Source: Caldilineaceae bacterium
Lineage (GTDB): Bacteria > Chloroflexota > Anaerolineae > Caldilineales > Caldilineaceae
DNA length: 64,000 bases
Direction: 5' to 3'
Assembly: GCA_026989655.1 (NCBI GenBank)
Contig: JALSIX010000114.1
Coordinates: 1 to 64,000, forward strand
The notes beneath the pieces are model-generated. The model ran no database searches and was not told the origin of the DNA. It was given only the letters and a program-made list of their open reading frames with translations. The position numbers and the translations under genes are program-made. This document shows, piece after piece, positions 47,733 through 57,563 of the stretch. Each line of letters opens with the position of its first letter. The first letter of the stretch is position 1.

Positions 47733-48152
47733 ATGCCTCCCATTACCCGTCGCTTCATCAAGACCGGCCTGGTCTACTTCGTGCTGGCCATGATCGCGGG
47801 GATCCTGGTCGCGGCCAGGCCCGTCTTCCACCTGCCGACCCCGGCGGGCGCGCTCACGCCCATCTACTTCCACCTGTTCATGGTGGGGTGGGTGCTCCAG
47901 CTCATCATGGGCATCGCCTACTGGATGTTCCCCAAGTACAGCCGCGAGCGCCCCAGGGGCTACAACGGGCTCATGTGGACCGCGTACGGGCTGTTGAACC
48001 TAGGGCTGGTGCTGCGGGTGATCGCGGAGCCCATGGCTACCCTCCAGGAACGGCCGCTGTGGGGGTGGCTCCTGGTCGTCTCCGCGGTGAGCCAGTGGCT
48101 GGCGGCCCTGGCCTTCACCGCGAACATGTGGCCCCGGGTGAAGGAGAAGTGA
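47733..48152 (+). CDS. Four-span protein resembling part of cbb3/NorB-type oxidase subunit I, copy 1
   Basis: The 139-residue membrane protein has four spans. The second contains TPIYFHLFMVGWVLQLIMGIAYWMFPKYS, where the H-x5-GW-xxQ-xxxGxAYWxxP pattern resembles a helix of cbb3- or NorB-type subunit I that carries a haem ligand. A full subunit I has twelve or more spans, so this cannot be a complete oxidase. It may bind haem as a small dimer or with its paralogue immediately downstream (2-nt gap). Confidence 0.7.
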   Translation: MPPITRRFIKTGLVYFVLAMIAGILVAARPVFHLPTPAGALTPIYFHLFMVGWVLQLIMGIAYWMFPKYSRERPRGYNGLMWTAYGLLNLGLVLRVIAEPMATLQERPLWGWLLVVSAVSQWLAALAFTANMWPRVKEK

Positions 48153-48153
48153 G

Positions 48154-48558
48154 ATGCCCCGCCTGAGCGTCTGGTTCATCCGCGCGTCCTTCGTCTACCT
48201 GCTCATCGGGGTGACCCTGGGCATGCTCATGCTGTGGAACAAGGGCGTTCCCCTACACCCCGCGGTCTGGCGGCTGTTACCGGCCCACATGGACTTCCTC
48301 CTCCTGGGGTGGACCCTGCAGTTGGCCCTAGGCGTGGCCTTCTGGATCCTGCCCCGGTTCATGACCTCTCGGGGGAACGTGAAGCCGGCCTGGGCCGCCT
48401 TCTTCCTGCTCAACGTGGGGGTATGGCTGGTGGGGGTAGGGGGCGCGCTGGGCCGGCCGGGCTATGTCCTGGCCGGCCGGGTGGCCGAGGCGATGGCCGC
48501 GGCCGCCTTCGCGCTCCATGCCTGGCCCCGGGTCAAGCCTCCCCTGGGGATGGAGTAG
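48154..48558 (+). CDS. Four-span protein resembling part of cbb3/NorB-type oxidase subunit I, copy 2
   Basis: The 134-residue protein is a divergent paralogue of the gene just upstream: LPAHMDFLLLGWTLQLALGVAFWILPRF aligns with that protein's YFHLFMVGWVLQLIMGIAYWMFPKY, and overall span spacing is the same. The histidine is shifted within the helix (AHMDF instead of YFHLF), so haem ligation may differ. The pair ends the operon; the terminator at 48586-48612 follows. Confidence 0.7.
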   Translation: MPRLSVWFIRASFVYLLIGVTLGMLMLWNKGVPLHPAVWRLLPAHMDFLLLGWTLQLALGVAFWILPRFMTSRGNVKPAWAAFFLLNVGVWLVGVGGALGRPGYVLAGRVAEAMAAAAFALHAWPRVKPPLGME

Positions 48559-49219: not shown

Positions 49220-49720
49220 CTATCGGTAGCGATCCACGAAGTACTGCTGCAGCTCCTCCCAGGTGAGCACCTGGCCGTCTGGAAACCTCTGGGCAAAGGC
49301 GACAGCCGCCTCCGGGGTGGCAAAGGCGGCGAAGCCGTAGGCCATGGGGCTGCGGATCTCCACGGCCACCACGTAGGCGGCGGTGGCCGCGTCCAGCCAC
49401 TCCCGGGTATTGTAGTCGTGGACCCACAGAGTCACAAAGTCCAGATCCGGGTGCTCCTCCCGGTAGGCCAACATGTCGCCGATGTCGTCGAAGAGACGGT
49501 ACGCGTAGTCCCCAGGGGCCTCCTCCACCACCGCCGCGGCCGCGAAGCGGTCGTCGCTGATGATCATGTTGCACTGGTCGCAGACGTCCTCGCCGTAGAC
49601 GATCTCCGGCGGCTCGTTGGGGGCCACCCGGGAGCCGCATCCGGCCGCCAGAAGCCCCAGAAGCGGGAGCACCAGCCACAGCCATCGGCGGCCGGCCATC
49701 TGGATGGTCTTGCGCCTCAC
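49220..49720 (-). CDS. nosL: NosL copper chaperone lipoprotein
   Basis: The 166-residue protein has a lipobox LLAAGC (Cys28) and the NosL copper motif CDQCNM (Cys47, Cys50, Met52) within GEDVCDQCNMIISDDRFAA. It continues with the family pattern YRLFDDIGDMLAY and AAFATPEAAVAFAQRFPDGQVLTWEEL. NosL delivers Cu(I) to NosD for the CuZ site of nitrous oxide reductase. The GTG at 49720 overlaps the nosY stop (GTGA) and is preceded by GGAGGGAGAC, which fixes the start. Confidence 0.95.
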   Translation of the reverse strand: MRRKTIQMAGRRWLWLVLPLLGLLAAGCGSRVAPNEPPEIVYGEDVCDQCNMIISDDRFAAAAVVEEAPGDYAYRLFDDIGDMLAYREEHPDLDFVTLWVHDYNTREWLDAATAAYVVAVEIRSPMAYGFAAFATPEAAVAFAQRFPDGQVLTWEELQQYFVDRYR

Positions 49721-50541
49721 ACGTCTCCCTCCCGAACGAAGATCAGGTGTGCCACCCCCAGGGGCACCCACACCCACAGGAGCAGCACCCCCAACAACAG
49801 GGGCATGAGCCCCTCACCGAAGGTGCGGGTGGCGTAGAGCCCGGCCGGGCCCAACACCTCCAGGCTGGCCTGCAGGGCCTGGACCGCGGCGATCTTGAAG
49901 ACCTGGAGCGGGTTGAGCAGAGCCAGGGTCAACAGCGCACCCACGTCCAGCCTCATGGCCACCGCGGTGCCCATGAGGCCCAGATCCGCCAGGAAGACCA
50001 GCAGAAGCCAGACAAAGAGCCCCACCCCCACGGCCAGGGAGCCCCGCCGGCTGGCCACGGAGATCACCAGCCCCAGGCTCAGGCTGGCCAGGGCCAGGAG
50101 CAGGGAGATGCCCGCCAGGGCCAGGTAGCGATCGGCCTCCACGGTGCTGCTCTGCCGGGCGATGAGGATCCCGGCCAGCCCGAACCCCAACAGGAGGGTG
50201 GTGGCCAGGGCCAGCCCCAGCCCCAGGAACTTGCCCAGCAACACCTCGCCCCGGCCGATGGGCTGCGCCAGGAGGTAGGACAGGGTGCTCTGCTCCCGCT
50301 CGCCAGCCACACTCATAGCCCCCACGGTGAGCCCCATCAGGGGCACGATGAGCAACACCAGGTTGATCAGGCTGGCCGCGGTGCGCCCGAAGCCCGCGAA
50401 CCCGAAGAGACCGGCCCCGCTCAGGGAGAGATAGCTCAGCCCGGAGGCCAGAAGGGTGAAGGTGAGGGTGTAGAGCACGAACCAGCGGTTGCGTACCGAC
50501 GCCCGGAGCTCGTAGATGGCCAGCGTCGCGATCTTGTCCAT
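49717..50541 (-). CDS. nosY: NosY, ABC transporter permease of the NosDFY complex
   Basis: The 274-residue protein has six membrane spans and the ABC-2-type pattern IYELRASVRNRWFVLYTLTF at the start and GAMSVAGEREQSTLSYLLAQPIGRGEVLLGKFLGLG, the coupling-helix region of NosY. With NosF it forms the transporter that drives NosD in CuZ maturation. The ATG at 50541 begins the conserved N-terminus. It is 142 nt after the NosD-NosF fusion and overlaps nosL by 4 nt. Confidence 0.93.
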   Translation of the reverse strand: MDKIATLAIYELRASVRNRWFVLYTLTFTLLASGLSYLSLSGAGLFGFAGFGRTAASLINLVLLIVPLMGLTVGAMSVAGEREQSTLSYLLAQPIGRGEVLLGKFLGLGLALATTLLLGFGLAGILIARQSSTVEADRYLALAGISLLLALASLSLGLVISVASRRGSLAVGVGLFVWLLLVFLADLGLMGTAVAMRLDVGALLTLALLNPLQVFKIAAVQALQASLEVLGPAGLYATRTFGEGLMPLLLGVLLLWVWVPLGVAHLIFVREGDV

Positions 50542-50682
50542 GGCTGCGACCTCGGATGAACTCGGACACACTCATGGCCGTGGCCCGGCGGTGGGCCAGG
50601 GCAAGGACGAAACCCGGATGGGCCCCCGACCCCTGTCCGGAGCTCCCCGGGAGAACGGCCTCGAGGGGGCCGGAGCCCTCCA

Positions 50683-52980
50683 TCAACCGGCCTGGAACAC
50701 CTCCTGGGGCCGCGGCCCGGTGCCGTCCGGCTGTTCGGGCTCGCCCGGCCCTGGGGCTCCCCCTGAAGCTCCTTGGAGGGAGGCCATCACCGTTCGGGGC
50801 GGCCCCTCGGCCACGATCCGCCCCTCGGCCATCACCAACACCCGATCGGCCAGATCGGTGACCTCGGCCAGGTGGTGGCTGCTGTAGAGCAGGCTCTTGC
50901 CCCGATCCCGGAGACGCTTCAACAGGTCGATGAACTCCTGGCGGGCGTTCACGTCCAGGTTGCTGGTGGGCTCGTCCAACAGGAGCACCGGCGGATCCGA
51001 GAGCAAGGCCAGGGCCAGGGCCAGGCGCTGCTTCATGCCGCCGGAGAGCGCGCCCACCTCCTTCCGCTCCTGGCCAGCGAGCCCCACCAGGGCCAACACC
51101 TGGGGAATACGGGCCGGGGAAACCTCCTTCAGTCGGGCGTAGAGGCGGCAGGTGTCCGCCACGGTCAGCTCGTTGTGGAAAGCCAGCTCCTGGGGCACAT
51201 AGCCCAGGAAACGGCGGGCCTGTTTGCCCTGGCGTCGCAGGTCCAGGCCGTTCAGCCGCAGCTCTCCCTCGTAGTGGAGCAGCCCCAGGATGCACTTGAG
51301 CACCGTGGTCTTGCCCGCGCCGTTGGCCCCCCACAGGGCCAGGGATTCCCCGGGGAAGAGCTGAAAGCTCACATCCTCCACCGCGGTGATGGTGGCATCG
51401 CTCCACCAGGGGCGTCCAGGCTGGGGGTAGCGTTTGACCAGACGGCGGGCGACCAATACGGGTTCATCAGGGGACAGGGTCGGCGCAGGGGGCGGGGTCG
51501 GGTGCATGGGTTCCTCCGTTGCATCGGCCGCGGATCGCGGACGCCCGCCCACATCGGCAGGCCGGGCCGGGTGCCCGGCTCGAAGGGCCACGGCAGGGAG
51601 CACCGCCAGGGCCAGAAGCGCGGCCGTGGCCCATCCCATGGCGCTCTCCATCGGGGCGCCCAGAGGGGCCGTGGGCGGAAGCAGGGGGTCCATCCGCGGG
51701 CTGGGGTCTGTCAGCTTGGGCTGGGGCTTGAACACCGGAAACGCCCGAGCCGCCATCTCGATGGTCTGCTGGACAGGGCTGAAGCGGAAGAGGCGGAGCT
51801 CCGGATATCGGTCGATCAGGTTCTCGAAAAGGCTCTCGGACCGGTAGGGCAGATCGCCCACCCCATCGCCGTCCGCGTCGTAGCCCACGTAGTCGCTCCA
51901 GTAGTTGCCCTCCCAGGTGTTGGCGCCCAGGATATCCCCCTGGCGGCTGCCGCCCCCCTTCGCGGCCACCTGTTCCAGGTTGTCCAGGAAGGTGTTCTCC
52001 GCGAAGCGGTTGCGGGCCACCGCGGGCATGAGGAGCACGCCCATGTCGTTGTAGGCCAGGACGTTGCGCCGGATCTCCTGGTAGATGTTCACACTGGCCG
52101 GGGAGTTGTCGAAGAAGAGCCCCACCCGGTTCTCGAAGAAGTAGTTGTCCCGGACGGTGACCGCATCCATGTCCTTGAGACCCAGGCCGTAGCCGCTGGG
52201 CCCCCGGTTCTGGCGGAAGGTGTTGCCCTCGATGAGGACGTTGACGCTGTACATCAGGTAGATCCCCACCGAGTTGCCCTCGGTGAGGTTCTCCCGGACG
52301 ACCATGCCGTCGGTGTACATCATGTGGACGCCGTAGCGGTTGCCCCGGAAGACGTTGCGGCGCACGGTGGTGTCGTCGCTGAACCAGAAGATCGCGTCCC
52401 GCACGCCCTCCACCACGTTGTCCTCCACCAGGCAGTTCTCGCTCTGCCAGAGGCGGATGCCATCGCCCCGACGGGCCACGGGCAGCGCCTTGCCCCGGAT
52501 GACGTTGCCCCGGAGCACCAATCGGTGGGCCTCAATGCCCCGGATCCCGTACAGGGTGTCCTCGATCCGGTTGTCGGCCAGGACCACGTCCACGGCCTTG
52601 TCCACGGTGATGCCGCCGTCCTCGTTGTCCACGTCGATGCCGCTGTTGCGGACCAGGAAGCCCTGGAACACGGTGCCGTCCGCGGCGATGGTCACCACGG
52701 TACCCTGACCGCCCCCGTCGATGATGGGCCGCTCCCCATTGGGCCCCTGACGGCCCACGATGCGGAGGGGGCGGTCCACCACGATAGGCCCCCGGTAGAG
52801 CCCCGGGGGCACCTCCACCGTGCTGCCCGGCGGGGCCTGGGCGATCGCGGCCTGCAGGTCGAAGGGCGGCTCTGGCTGCGCGGCCGCGTCCCCGGCCAGG
52901 AAGGCCCCCAACAGGCCGGCCAGGGCAAGGCAGCCCACCAGGAGATGGCGGATCCCCAGTCCACGACGTTCCGCGTTCAT
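50683..52980 (-). CDS. nosDF: Fused NosD-NosF: extracytoplasmic beta-helix protein joined to ABC ATPase
   Basis: The 765-residue protein has a signal peptide (1-33) and a NosD right-handed beta-helix with carbohydrate-binding CASH-type repeats (about 35-430; many NxI/V..N rungs such as NVLIEGNTFRQN). A membrane span follows (448-469), a basic Pro-rich linker, then a complete NosF ATPase: Walker A GANGAGKT (551-558), signature LSGGMKQ (645-651), Walker B VLLLDEP (665-671). The two are normally separate genes. Topology is consistent: NosD outside, NosF inside. Met492 (position 51507) has GGAGG 5 nt upstream, so free NosF of 274 residues may also be made. Confidence 0.92.
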   Translation of the reverse strand: MNAERRGLGIRHLLVGCLALAGLLGAFLAGDAAAQPEPPFDLQAAIAQAPPGSTVEVPPGLYRGPIVVDRPLRIVGRQGPNGERPIIDGGGQGTVVTIAADGTVFQGFLVRNSGIDVDNEDGGITVDKAVDVVLADNRIEDTLYGIRGIEAHRLVLRGNVIRGKALPVARRGDGIRLWQSENCLVEDNVVEGVRDAIFWFSDDTTVRRNVFRGNRYGVHMMYTDGMVVRENLTEGNSVGIYLMYSVNVLIEGNTFRQNRGPSGYGLGLKDMDAVTVRDNYFFENRVGLFFDNSPASVNIYQEIRRNVLAYNDMGVLLMPAVARNRFAENTFLDNLEQVAAKGGGSRQGDILGANTWEGNYWSDYVGYDADGDGVGDLPYRSESLFENLIDRYPELRLFRFSPVQQTIEMAARAFPVFKPQPKLTDPSPRMDPLLPPTAPLGAPMESAMGWATAALLALAVLPAVALRAGHPARPADVGGRPRSAADATEEPMHPTPPPAPTLSPDEPVLVARRLVKRYPQPGRPWWSDATITAVEDVSFQLFPGESLALWGANGAGKTTVLKCILGLLHYEGELRLNGLDLRRQGKQARRFLGYVPQELAFHNELTVADTCRLYARLKEVSPARIPQVLALVGLAGQERKEVGALSGGMKQRLALALALLSDPPVLLLDEPTSNLDVNARQEFIDLLKRLRDRGKSLLYSSHHLAEVTDLADRVLVMAEGRIVAEGPPRTVMASLQGASGGAPGPGEPEQPDGTGPRPQEVFQAG
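51505..51517 (-). promoter_or_regulatory. Internal ribosome-binding site and ATG for free NosF
   Basis: Minus strand GGAGG-AACCC-ATG lies inside the fused reading frame, at the exact boundary between linker and ATPase domain. Spacing and sequence are optimal, better than for the gene's own start at 52980. Confidence 0.6.
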
Positions 52981-53011: not shown

Positions 53012-53716
53012 TCATCCGTTGTCGGTCCCCTGGGCCTGCCGCTCCGCGGCCAGGCGGGCCGCTCGGCGGTAGTGGAGGCCGATGGCCGTCAGGATGGCCG
53101 CGGCCAGGGCCATGTACCAGCCCACCTGGAGGGTGGCTGTGGTGCTGAACTGGCCCACGGTGCCGGTACCCAAGACCGGCGGGGTGAAGGGCTGGATGGA
53201 CGAGGAGAGGGGGGCCCGAGGATCCAGGCTGTGGCCGTAGTAGTACAGCCACACGAACATGTCCAGCAGGAAGATGACGGGGAAGAGCATCACCGGAATG
53301 GCCAGGACCGCGAACCATTTGCTGTGGATGAAGGCCACGCCGACGATGAAGAGGGCCATCACCGCGATGGCGATGGGGGCCAGGGTCCGTTCGAGCTGGG
53401 CGGCCTCCTCCAGGGGTTTCATCCCGATGTAGTGGTTCAGCCCATCGATCTCCCGGATGTCCCCCTCCATCCGATCCACGTAGACGACGATGTAGAGCCC
53501 TTGGGGATATTGGGGGGCATTCAGCCGCATCTTCCAGTAGGGGAAGAAGGTCGAGGTGACCAGGAGCGCGGCGGCCAACACGAACAGAAGGGTGCTGACT
53601 CGAAAGCTCGGCTGCCGGGAGACCCGGGCGATGTGGCCCATCTCCGCCGCCTCCCGGTGGGCCACGGCCGTCTGCCCCTCCTGGCCCGGGGTTTTGGTCT
53701 GGACCTCCGTGGTCAT
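53012..53716 (-). CDS. Nos-cluster membrane protein of unknown function
   Basis: The 234-residue protein has a Thr/Gln-rich N-terminal tail, a membrane span (about 42-62), an extracytoplasmic stretch with FFPYWKMRLNAPQYPQGLYIVVYVDRMEG and LNHYIGMKPL, and three further spans. I recall this type beside nosD in clade II nos clusters, but cannot name it with certainty. The YWKMRL...YP segment, with Trp, Met and Tyr, would suit a copper or cytochrome partner. It is the first gene after the Crp/Fnr-type promoter, and the NosD-NosF fusion starts 31 nt after it. Confidence 0.75.
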   Translation of the reverse strand: MTTEVQTKTPGQEGQTAVAHREAAEMGHIARVSRQPSFRVSTLLFVLAAALLVTSTFFPYWKMRLNAPQYPQGLYIVVYVDRMEGDIREIDGLNHYIGMKPLEEAAQLERTLAPIAIAVMALFIVGVAFIHSKWFAVLAIPVMLFPVIFLLDMFVWLYYYGHSLDPRAPLSSSIQPFTPPVLGTGTVGQFSTTATLQVGWYMALAAAILTAIGLHYRRAARLAAERQAQGTDNG

Positions 53717-53766: not shown

Positions 53767-53809
53767 ATTATATGGGCCTCTCGGGTTCCGGGCTGCGACT
53801 TTTGTCTCA
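53767..53809 (-). promoter_or_regulatory. Class II Crp/Fnr-type promoter of the nosDFYL operon
   Basis: Minus strand: TGAGAC-AAAA-GTCGCA (53794-53809), exactly 21 nt, then consensus -10 TATAAT (53767-53772). The GGCTGCGACTTTTGTCTCA segment (53791-53809, plus strand) is identical to the one before nosZ. Confidence 0.85.
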
Positions 53810-53870
53810 GCCCGGCGATCTCGTCCCCCTCGCCGGGCGGTTGCCGGCCCAGGGATCGGACGGAGGCGCT

Positions 53871-55457
53871 ATGTCCCCCATCCAGGGCCTCCTGCCCCCT
53901 TCTCCAGAACGAGAACACCCACGCCACCTGCTCCGTGCCATCCTGGTGGTCATGGGCTTCTTCGGCCTGGACAAGGTGACCGGGTTCGGGAAGCTGCTCC
54001 TGATGACCCGGGCCTTTGGCACGGGCCCGGAGGCGGATGCCTTCACCGCGGCCAACCAGCTTCCCGAGCTGATGTTGGCCATGATGGCCGGCGGCGCCAT
54101 CACCATGGCCTTCATCCCCGTCTACTCCGCCTCTCGGCTGCGCCATCCAGGCCAGGCCACCTCCTTGGCCAACACCCTCTTCACCCTGACCCTGCTCGGG
54201 GTGGGGGTTGCCTGTGCCCTGTTGGCCTGGGGAGCGCCCTGGATCGCCCGGGTGTTCCTGGTCCCCGACTTCCCACCCGAGCAGCAGCGCCTCACCGGGG
54301 AGCTCATGCGGGTGGTGCTGTTCTCCGCCTTCCTGCTGGCCGTCGGGGGCGTCTTCACCGGCCTGCTCCACGCCCACCAGCACTTCTGGACGCCGGCCCT
54401 GGGGCGAGTCCTCATCGACCTGGGCCAGCTCGGGGGGCTGGCCTTCCTGGCCCCGGTCTGGGGCATCCACGGGGTGGCCTGGGGAAGCGTCCTGGGCGCG
54501 GCCTTGGTGGTCTTGGCCCAGCTCCTCGCGCTCTGGCACCATCGGCTCCGGCTGCGGCTCGAGCTGGCCCTCCGCCTCCGAGAGCTGCGGGAGATGTTCC
54601 GGCTCATTGGACCTCGGGTGGTGACCATGGGTGCGTTCCAGGCGGTGGACCTGGTGACCATTCGCCTGGGCTCCAGGCTGCCCGAGGGCGCGATCGCGGC
54701 CCTCTTCTACGCGCTCCTGGCCATGGTCTACATGCCCCGGTCCCTGTTCGCCACCGCGGTGATCCAGGTGCTCTTCCCCACCCTCGCGGAGCAGTACAAC
54801 CGGGGCGACCTCCCGGGTCTACGCCGGACCACCACCTGGGGGCTCCGGACGGTGATGGTGCTGATCAGCGGGGCCGCGGTGGGGCTGGTGGCCCTGGGGC
54901 CGCCCGCGGTGGCCCTCTTCTTCCAACGGGGGGCCTTCGGGCCGGAGTCCACGGCCCTGGTCTACTCCCTGATGGTGATCCTGTCCATCCGTCTGGTCAG
55001 CGAAGCCCTGGCCGATGTGCTGTCCCTCCCCTTCTACGCCCGGCACGACACCGCCACGCCCATGTGGGTGACCTTGGGGTGGATGGGGGTGCAGGTGGGG
55101 CTGAGCTACCTGCTGGTGGATCGGTGGGGAGTCCAGGGGCTGGCCTGGGCCGCCTCCCTGTCCATGGCGACCATGGCCGGCGTCATGGCCTGGCTCTGCC
55201 AGAGCCGTCTGCGTGGGCTGGAGATGGGGACGTTGGTCCGCACCGGGGGCCGGCTGCTGGTGGCCTGTGGGGCCATGGGGATGACGGTCCAGGCGGTGCA
55301 GGGCCGGGGATGGCCCCCCCTCCTCGCGGTGCCCATGGCCGTGGCCCTGGGGGCTGGGGTCTTCTGGGGCGGATACACGCTGTTGGGGGGCGAGGAGCTG
55401 CGCGGGGTGTGGCTGCGGATGGTCCGCCGGCCGGCAACGCCCCCGGAGGACCGATAG
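53871..55457 (+). CDS. murJ: Lipid II flippase MurJ family protein
   Basis: The 528-residue protein has fourteen predicted spans and the MurJ pattern: GFFGLDKVTGFGKLLLMTRAFGTGPEADAFTAANQLPELMLAMMAGGAITMAFIPVYS at the start, then RLTGELMRVVLFSAFLLAVGGVFTGLLHAHQHF. It moves lipid II or a related polyprenyl-linked precursor across the membrane. GGAGG is 7 nt before the ATG at 53871. It sits alone between the two nos transcription units and is read in the opposite direction, converging with nosZ. Confidence 0.9.
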   Translation: MSPIQGLLPPSPEREHPRHLLRAILVVMGFFGLDKVTGFGKLLLMTRAFGTGPEADAFTAANQLPELMLAMMAGGAITMAFIPVYSASRLRHPGQATSLANTLFTLTLLGVGVACALLAWGAPWIARVFLVPDFPPEQQRLTGELMRVVLFSAFLLAVGGVFTGLLHAHQHFWTPALGRVLIDLGQLGGLAFLAPVWGIHGVAWGSVLGAALVVLAQLLALWHHRLRLRLELALRLRELREMFRLIGPRVVTMGAFQAVDLVTIRLGSRLPEGAIAALFYALLAMVYMPRSLFATAVIQVLFPTLAEQYNRGDLPGLRRTTTWGLRTVMVLISGAAVGLVALGPPAVALFFQRGAFGPESTALVYSLMVILSIRLVSEALADVLSLPFYARHDTATPMWVTLGWMGVQVGLSYLLVDRWGVQGLAWAASLSMATMAGVMAWLCQSRLRGLEMGTLVRTGGRLLVACGAMGMTVQAVQGRGWPPLLAVPMAVALGAGVFWGGYTLLGGEELRGVWLRMVRRPATPPEDR

Positions 55458-55541: not shown

Positions 55542-57563
55542 CTACGGCTGGACCAGGAGGTATCCGGTCATCTCCAGGTGCAGCGCGGAGCAGAACTCCG
55601 TGCAGTAGTAGCTGAAGACACCGTCCTTCACGGCCTCGAACTCCACGGTGACCGTCTCGCCCGGCTCGATGCTCAGGTTGATGTTGTAGCCGGGCAGGGC
55701 AAAGCCGTGGGTGGCGTCCACCGCCTGCTCCACGTTGGTGATGTGCCAGATCACCCGGTCGCCCTTCTTGATCTCGATCCGCTCGGGCGTGAAGTGGCTG
55801 CGGACCGCGGTCATCCAGATCTCCACCGTGTTCCCCCGGCGCTCCACCCGCTCCTGGCCGATCTCGGTGGCGTTGGGGTCCTTGGACCAGGTGCGGGGGT
55901 TCCAGCCGATCTCGGGGTAGACCTGGATGGGGTTCAGCCGGTCCGCGCGGATGATCTGCGCGTAGTGGGGCTCGCCCCAGCCGATGGGCATGTCGTAGAG
56001 GAGCTGCATGCTCTCGCCCTGGCCGCTGATGTCGATGAGCTGGAAGTTCTGGGGCAGGAGCGGCCCCACGTTGGCGAAGCGGTCCACGGACCACTTGTTC
56101 AGGCTGACCAGGAACTGGCCGGCCGGCTCCGCGGTGTCGCCCTCCGCGGCCGCGATGTGGCCCACGTTGTAGTGGATGGACTCCTTCTCCACCAACTGCC
56201 AGCCCTCGTCCGCCCGGGGGTAGTCGCCGCCCAGGGTCCACCGGGCCACCGCGCTGTCCAGGAAGAGGCTGGTGTACGCGTAGCCCTGGTTGTCGAACTG
56301 GGTGTGCAGGGGCCCCAGACCCAGCTCCACCTGGGCCTCCACCACCGAGTCGAAGTTCAGCACCGGCACCCCGTAGGGATCCACCTCCCAGTCCTCGTTG
56401 GCGATGGCCTGCTGGATCTTCTCGAAGCTGTAGATGGTCACGTGGGGATCCAGCTTGCCACTGATCACGATGAAGTCGCCCTTGGGGGCGATGTCCACCC
56501 CGTGGGGGCTCTTGGGCTCGGGGATGAAGTAGAGCACCCGCTCGTCGATGAGCTTCTGGAGAGGCACGTAGTTGAAGCCGTTGAGCCGCAGCTCGTTCTC
56601 CTGGGCCACCTGGATGGCCTTGTTCAGGTCGATGACGTGCAGATAGTCCATGTCGGCCTGGCTGGCCCCGGACTCGAAGGGGACTGCGTCCTCCTCCACC
56701 CCGGCACCGCCCACGGCCATCTCGGTGTTGAAGCTGTTGCAGAAGACCCACCCCTCGCTGACCAGCTTGCCCGCGTCACACAGGTCCTGCCAGTAGGGGG
56801 GCAGCTCCAGGGCGAAGGACTCCTCCGGGATGATGCGGCCCTTCTCCCGGTCGAACTTCCAGAAGGTGACCATGCCCCGCCACTCCTCCTCGTAGGTATC
56901 GATGGGCGCGTACTCCGCGCCGGGCGGGGCCGCGTACTGGCCACCCTCGATGACCCACTCGGTGTTGGGGGTGACGAAGGTGCCGCCGTGGTCGTTCATC
57001 GCGGTGGGGTTCTTGACCAACTGCTTGGTCTCGAAGTCCCGGAGGTCGATGACCGCAACCCGGGCCTGGGCCTTGTCGTTGACGAAGAGCCACTGGCCGT
57101 CGTAGACCGCGTTGGTCTCACTCAGGGCCGGGTGGTGGGTATCTCCCCAGCGGACGTTCTCCCCGAAGGGGTCCGCTTCCTTGAACATGGCCTCCTGCTC
57201 CACGTCGCCGTAGCCGTAGCCCTGCCATGGCTCCGGCGTGAACACGCCGATGGTGCGCAGCAGCCGCATGGAGGGCACGCCGATCACGTGGACCTGGCCG
57301 CTGTGCCCACCGGACGAGAACATGATGAACGGGTCGTGCTGGCCGCTGGGCATGAAGGTCTTCAACGCGGCCACCACGTTCTCCGGAGTGAGCCCCCGCT
57401 CCGCGATGATCGCGGCCGCGTCCTGGCCCACCCCGGCCTCCTGGGGTACGGGGGTGGCTGCCTCGCCACCGCCGCCGCCACCCCGGCTGACCAGCATGGC
57501 CCCCAGGGCCACCACCAGGATGGCCAGGACGGCGATGACGCCGTAGAGCACGGATTTCTTCAT
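55542..57563 (-). CDS. nosZ: Nitrous oxide reductase, clade II (Sec-dependent)
   Basis: The 673-residue enzyme reduces N2O to N2. The N-terminus is a plain hydrophobic Sec-type segment (MKKSVLYGVIAVLAIL) with no twin arginine, which marks clade II. All seven CuZ histidine motifs are visible: DTHHP (His143, His144), MNDHGG (His192), SPHGVD, PLHTQF, VGHIAAAEGDT and GEPHYAQ. The C-terminal CuA domain has C-x3-C-x3-H-x2-M (Cys654, Cys658, His662, Met665). GGGAGG precedes the ATG. Because the N-terminal segment may not be cleaved, the enzyme could be membrane-anchored. Confidence 0.97.
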   Translation of the reverse strand: MKKSVLYGVIAVLAILVVALGAMLVSRGGGGGGEAATPVPQEAGVGQDAAAIIAERGLTPENVVAALKTFMPSGQHDPFIMFSSGGHSGQVHVIGVPSMRLLRTIGVFTPEPWQGYGYGDVEQEAMFKEADPFGENVRWGDTHHPALSETNAVYDGQWLFVNDKAQARVAVIDLRDFETKQLVKNPTAMNDHGGTFVTPNTEWVIEGGQYAAPPGAEYAPIDTYEEEWRGMVTFWKFDREKGRIIPEESFALELPPYWQDLCDAGKLVSEGWVFCNSFNTEMAVGGAGVEEDAVPFESGASQADMDYLHVIDLNKAIQVAQENELRLNGFNYVPLQKLIDERVLYFIPEPKSPHGVDIAPKGDFIVISGKLDPHVTIYSFEKIQQAIANEDWEVDPYGVPVLNFDSVVEAQVELGLGPLHTQFDNQGYAYTSLFLDSAVARWTLGGDYPRADEGWQLVEKESIHYNVGHIAAAEGDTAEPAGQFLVSLNKWSVDRFANVGPLLPQNFQLIDISGQGESMQLLYDMPIGWGEPHYAQIIRADRLNPIQVYPEIGWNPRTWSKDPNATEIGQERVERRGNTVEIWMTAVRSHFTPERIEIKKGDRVIWHITNVEQAVDATHGFALPGYNINLSIEPGETVTVEFEAVKDGVFSYYCTEFCSALHLEMTGYLLVQP

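Follow-up and report, generated by a model that had tools for sequence, protein, structure and literature searches.

Nitrous oxide (N2O) is a greenhouse gas, and to our knowledge it is removed biologically solely through N2O reductase, whose copper loading depends on the NosDFY complex. NosD and NosF are normally separate proteins that lie on opposite sides of the membrane. In the 64,000-nucleotide stretch of DNA from a Caldilineaceae bacterium analyzed here (hereafter the window), the two are encoded by one gene, nosDF (50683..52980, minus strand; 765 codons followed by TGA), which raises the questions of whether this fusion is genuine and how a single gene could supply a complex that appears to hold two NosF subunits per NosD.

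Read from 52980 to 50683 on the minus strand, the frame has no stop within its 765 codons before TGA, and a Shine-Dalgarno (SD)-like GGAG precedes its start codon. The product begins with a predicted signal peptide (residues 1-34; 52879..52980, minus strand), recognized in the sequence by a hydrophobic core at residues 10-30 and ending at AAA-QP, which leads into the NosD domain (residues 42-430; 51691..52857, minus strand), a right-handed beta-helix that matches NCBIfam model TIGR04247 over its full length (profile positions 1-376 of 377) with 403.7 bits (cut-off 300 bits). Considering the N-terminal hydrophobic segment up to AAA-QP and the positive-inside rule, this half is predicted to be exported and extracytoplasmic. 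A single transmembrane helix with N-out/C-in orientation (residues 446-468; 51577..51645, minus strand) is supported by AlphaFold2, by KD hydrophobicity (2.02 at residues 448-466) and by the positive-inside rule. It is followed by a predicted cytoplasmic linker (residues 469-508; 51457..51576, minus strand), whose residues 469-497 are predicted to be disordered (AlphaFold2 pLDDT < 50), and by the NosF ATP-binding domain (residues 509-738; 50767..51456, minus strand), which was delimited by a Pfam ABC_tran match at residues 535-673, its motifs and the AlphaFold2 model. This model, computed from an alignment of 47 fused proteins, has a mean pLDDT of 86 and is confident in the beta-helix (pLDDT ~97) and mostly above 90 in the ATPase domain (509-738). 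In Foldseek comparisons, one half of the model matched NosD and the other NosF in the solved NosDFY structures (7o0y and 7osf), the NosD match being 7o0y_A/7osf_A. An earlier note on this DNA, made from its letters and open reading frames, had described a signal peptide, NosD and one membrane span in a single 765-codon frame, and the open frame, the TIGR04247 match and the AlphaFold2 helix bear this out.

The same note had also called the NosF half complete, which holds for the nucleotide-binding domain with all of its catalytic motifs (Walker A at residues 551-557, LSGGM at 645-649, Walker B at 666-670 and the H-loop His702), but not for the C-terminal accessory domain, which is absent and replaced by a short disordered tail (residues 740-765). 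Since the best PDB matches of this half in phmmer searches are two-domain ABCA proteins, its assignment as NosF rests on sequence identity (approximately 47-71% with NosF from other nos clusters, whereas the next-ranking ABC ATPases in those genomes reach no more than 41%) and on gene context, with nosD and nosY adjacent. The window protein thus carries the NosF ATPase domain minus the usual tail, although this tail may not be a strictly defining trait of NosF. NosF proteins of the window clade share the insertion PxPGRxWWSD close to residue 520 and lack the C-terminal accessory domain.

Genes for nosY, an ABC-2 type permease (49717..50571, minus strand; Pfam ABC2_membrane_2), and nosL, a copper chaperone (49220..49777, minus strand; Pfam NosL), lie downstream of nosDF, and a gene for the membrane protein NosB (53012..53716, minus strand) lies upstream. 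The nosB product has no Pfam or NCBIfam match and was assigned through the motifs LNHYIGM (residues 93-99) and YGHS (residues 160-163), the latter close to the YGHN of NosB (NosB motifs as given in PMC9697520); LNHYIGM was detected upstream of nosD in 56 of 73 class-level loci. Further upstream, nosZ (55542..57563, minus strand) encodes a clade II, Sec-dependent N2O reductase of 673 residues (TIGR04246, 827 bits; cut-off 625). A MurJ-like gene occupies the opposite strand between nosZ and nosB-nosDF (53772-55457, plus strand), and two tandem membrane proteins of about 135 residues are encoded beside the cluster (47733-48152 and 48154-48558, plus strand), each of which weakly resembles the first part of COX1 (PF00115), with a score below the cut-off. 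Aside from the fusion, the nos cluster of this Chloroflexota bacterium is an ordinary clade II one, and the nearest named relatives in the tree place the bacterium in Caldilineaceae.

As the window genome is a 150-contig assembly, the joined frame might be a sequencing or binning artefact in which a stop or frameshift between two genes had been missed, and one relative with a fusion-type gene (L015, genome G034) does have a frame break in the linker. However, by searching the family, class, phylum and named genomes and testing each locus for one continuous NosD-NosF frame, we found in-frame fusions at 81 non-redundant loci, some of them in single-contig genomes (L078, L141) and one in a record of Sphaerobacter, and the window itself falls in a clade of nine fused loci with a support of 100 (two of the nine being repeat copies of the same genomes). 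A missed frameshift is therefore excluded as a general explanation, the artefact reading is refuted for the fusion family, and for the window gene it is extremely improbable. The break in L015, where the NosF frame still has an ATG of its own at the ancestral position, may be either a natural split or a sequencing error.

The fusion reported in the earlier note is thus conserved in relatives and recurs widely. Both domains were found at 80 class-level loci, 51 of which are fused, and within Chloroflexota fusions are present in Caldilineaceae, Ardenticatenia, Anaerolineae, Thermoflexus and Thermomicrobia, including Sphaerobacter; judged by record names, they also occur in Planctomycetota/Phycisphaeraceae, Gemmatimonadetes, Bipolaricaulota, KSB1, Calditrichaeota and Tectomicrobia. 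Phylogenetic analysis of 143 loci implies at least 13 switches between the fused and separate states. Other genera of the window's own family have separate nosD and nosF genes, and separate states are nested within fused groups (L129, L241), suggesting that splitting may occur too; the direction of these changes cannot be fixed by parsimony. Because relatives show both states, the separate genes seen in some of them do not refute the fusion, as the earlier note had held they might. Two loci have unusual layouts. A single 1258-codon frame with NosB, NosD, NosF and NosY in L100 (genome G075) may be an artefact and was set aside, as Ns occur in the sequence and genome completeness is low, at 77%. 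In L114 (genome G278), the fusion has no transmembrane helix between its halves, a layout that would place NosF on the wrong side of the membrane unless export has been lost.

The arrangement of separate loci suggests how such a fusion might arise. A C-terminal hydrophobic helix is present in NosD of 81 of 83 separate loci, as has been reported for Bacillus azotoformans NosD (a putative C-terminal transmembrane helix; PMC3475470), and nosF starts close behind nosD or overlaps its end. In the fused proteins, the 20 residues that follow the helix carry a net charge of +2.7, compared with +0.4 before it (80 fusions), and the tail of NosD is therefore predicted to be cytoplasmic, on the side of NosF. 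Since separate NosD is already anchored in the membrane, fusion merely joins its cytoplasmic tail to NosF and keeps the topology; the fused gene would have originated when this tail was joined to the adjacent downstream nosF. The view that the fusion ties the outside NosD directly to the inside ATPase is thus supported as regards topology, by the N-out/C-in helix and the positive-inside charge. Linkers vary in length from 21 to 77 residues across fusions and are not conserved in sequence. Those of L133-L138, L098 and L102 contain translated intergenic-type repeats, CCAATCTCCC-like and GTCATTGCGAGC-like, which are still in frame.

A fused gene poses a problem of stoichiometry. PDB entries of NosDFY contain 16 NosD chains in 16 entries and 30 NosF chains in 15 entries, and these chain counts indirectly support a ratio of one NosD to two NosF, the premise from which the earlier note had started. 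No second NosF-like gene was detected in the 19 fused genomes examined, where the best other ABC ATPase scored 141 bits, against 193-512 for the fused genes (151 against 205-455 in a second comparison). If the complex stays 1:2, the extra NosF must therefore come from the fused gene. It could instead be strictly 1:1, the full-length protein alone forming a NosDF2-NosY2 complex in which one of the two NosD domains may be idle or displaced, or both may serve two NosZ subunits. Linkers of 21-77 residues would leave slack for a spare NosD in such an assembly, but the solved complexes, by their chain counts, hold a single NosD per two NosF.

A candidate source of the extra NosF lies within the linker. 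Met492 (51505..51507, minus strand) is encoded by an ATG that is preceded by an SD-like GGAGG (51513..51517, minus strand) at a spacing of 5 nt (...CAACGGAGGAACCC-ATG), exactly as the earlier note had described, and initiation there would give a predicted NosF product of 274 residues. This codon is located within the disordered linker, 17 codons before the predicted NosF domain, and its SD is among the strongest: the hybridization energy of -9.5 kcal/mol has a rank of 0.005, that is, within the best 0.5% of equal-length windows of the same gene, with p = 0.03 against shuffling of the linker codon order. RNA structure around this start shows nothing unusual (z = 0.09). The ancestral NosF-start ATG has been lost in the window gene, and the earlier note's suggestion that the internal GGAGG-ATG might be conserved did not hold for its position, which has no match in the sister genera (g12, g6), where an ATG is found at the ancestral NosF start instead; our data set contains no second sequenced species of the window genus.

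Across the 81 fusions, an ATG is located exactly at the start of stand-alone NosF in 30 and elsewhere in the linker in 32 more, including the window, while 19 linkers lack ATG and five of the fusions (L094, L097, L110, L167 and L218) lack ATG, GTG and TTG alike. For each in-frame ATG we computed the free energy of the match to the anti-SD sequence. The median SD at the 30 ancestral-position ATGs (-5.1 kcal/mol) is close to that at 72 stand-alone NosF starts (-5.2 kcal/mol), compared with -2.5 kcal/mol at 338 in-frame control ATGs of the same genes (p = 2e-5 against the ancestral-position ATGs). A correctly placed SD 4-mer accompanies 70% of ancestral-position ATGs but 16% of controls (Fisher's test, 8e-10), and a purine peak is found at -13 to -8 upstream of the ancestral-position ATGs. 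Relatedness among loci is a caveat on these per-locus p-values, and once the loci are collapsed into 12 clades, the excess in SD strength is borderline (p = 0.057). The retention of the ancestral ATG could partly reflect ancestry rather than selection. In the Thermoflexus group, some species have the ATG without an SD and in others it has been changed to ATC or GTT. Sphaerobacter belongs to the fusions that lack a good internal start, and Litorilinea-type Caldilineaceae to those that have one.

It looks from these sequences as if internal initiation is used in many lineages and has been abandoned in others. The 19 fusions without ATG, and the five without any of the three start codons, imply that free NosF is not a general requirement. 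The earlier proposal that the internal start supplies the second NosF thus gains from the signal found here and in many relatives, but cannot be extended to all fusions, about a quarter of which offer no linker ATG; an internal start is plausible, though not in every fusion. Fusions with neither the usual linker start codon nor a second NosF must cope with a 1:1 ratio or use processing, which speaks for the strict 1:1 complex in those lineages; as a general account, however, it does not account for the linker SD-ATG that roughly one fusion in three possesses, and we regard it as unlikely. Alternatively, the fused chain might be partly cut by proteolysis in the linker, freeing NosF domains, with the internal SD-like sequence being a relic or a chance occurrence. 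The predicted disorder of residues 469-497 and the free evolution of the linkers, translated repeats included, are compatible with such cleavage, which would also work where fusions have no start codon, but the linkers contain no conserved cleavage motif and SD-like sites are more frequent than at control ATGs, so that proteolysis seems still less probable than a strict 1:1 assembly.

Taking these data together, we lean towards dual translation. The fusion is seen directly in the gene; the second product is a prediction, if a likely one. NosD would be exported by the Sec route and stay outside, anchored by the helix at residues 446-468, with the flexible linker next to it in the cytoplasm. By homology, the NosF domain would dock on NosY and power the assembly of the NosZ copper site as in ordinary NosDFY, whereas the internal GGAGG-ATG at codon 492 of the same mRNA would yield free NosF. 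For the window gene we consider it somewhat probable that a membrane-spanning NosDF chain and a free 274-residue NosF from codon 492 together, as one long and one short product, provide the NosY dimer with two NosF for each NosD. Many lineages may have retained the ribosome-binding site and start codon that nosF had before the genes were joined. A wider generalization, in which one fused gene with two products sets the 1:2 ratio of NosD to NosF in an asymmetric ABC complex, while a symmetric or processed complex took over wherever the internal start was lost, is possible but more tentative. The lineages without an internal start indicate that the fused system does not always need one, and the 1:1 and proteolysis alternatives therefore stay alive.

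The NosD-NosF fusion is apparently an undescribed, recurrent variant of the known NosDFY system: no description of it was found in the open full-text literature, the scope of our search. Since the NosD model is what passes the naming cut-off, the NosF half can stay hidden, and nosF may be scored as absent in gene surveys. A covalent link between outside and inside that recurs across phyla also provides a natural test of the coupling between ATP hydrolysis and NosD, and of whether the 1:2:2 architecture of NosDFY is obligatory. The closest known system is NosDFY of Pseudomonas stutzeri (7o0y, 7osf), which resembles the window protein in sequence (NosD, E = 2e-34; NosF, E = 7e-37), in both folds and in the operon partners NosY, NosL and NosZ. 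In P. stutzeri, however, NosD and NosF are separate chains, NosF has the C-terminal region missing in the window, and NosD (436 residues, with the match stopping at 421) leaves no room for a transmembrane helix, unlike the NosD of the window. B. azotoformans NosD (PMC3475470) shares the putative C-terminal helix but is not joined to NosF. In Flavobacterium and Dyadobacter, NosB is fused to NosL (PMC9697520), which likewise unites two clade II nos accessory proteins, although the partners are different and no NosD-ATPase link crosses the membrane. With regard to the proposed second product, the SctQ family is an unrelated protein in which an internal product is proven, whereas that of nosDF is predicted; in these type III secretion proteins (YscQ, SpaO), a full-length form and a C-terminal fragment made from an in-frame internal start together set the domain stoichiometry (PMC4443714).
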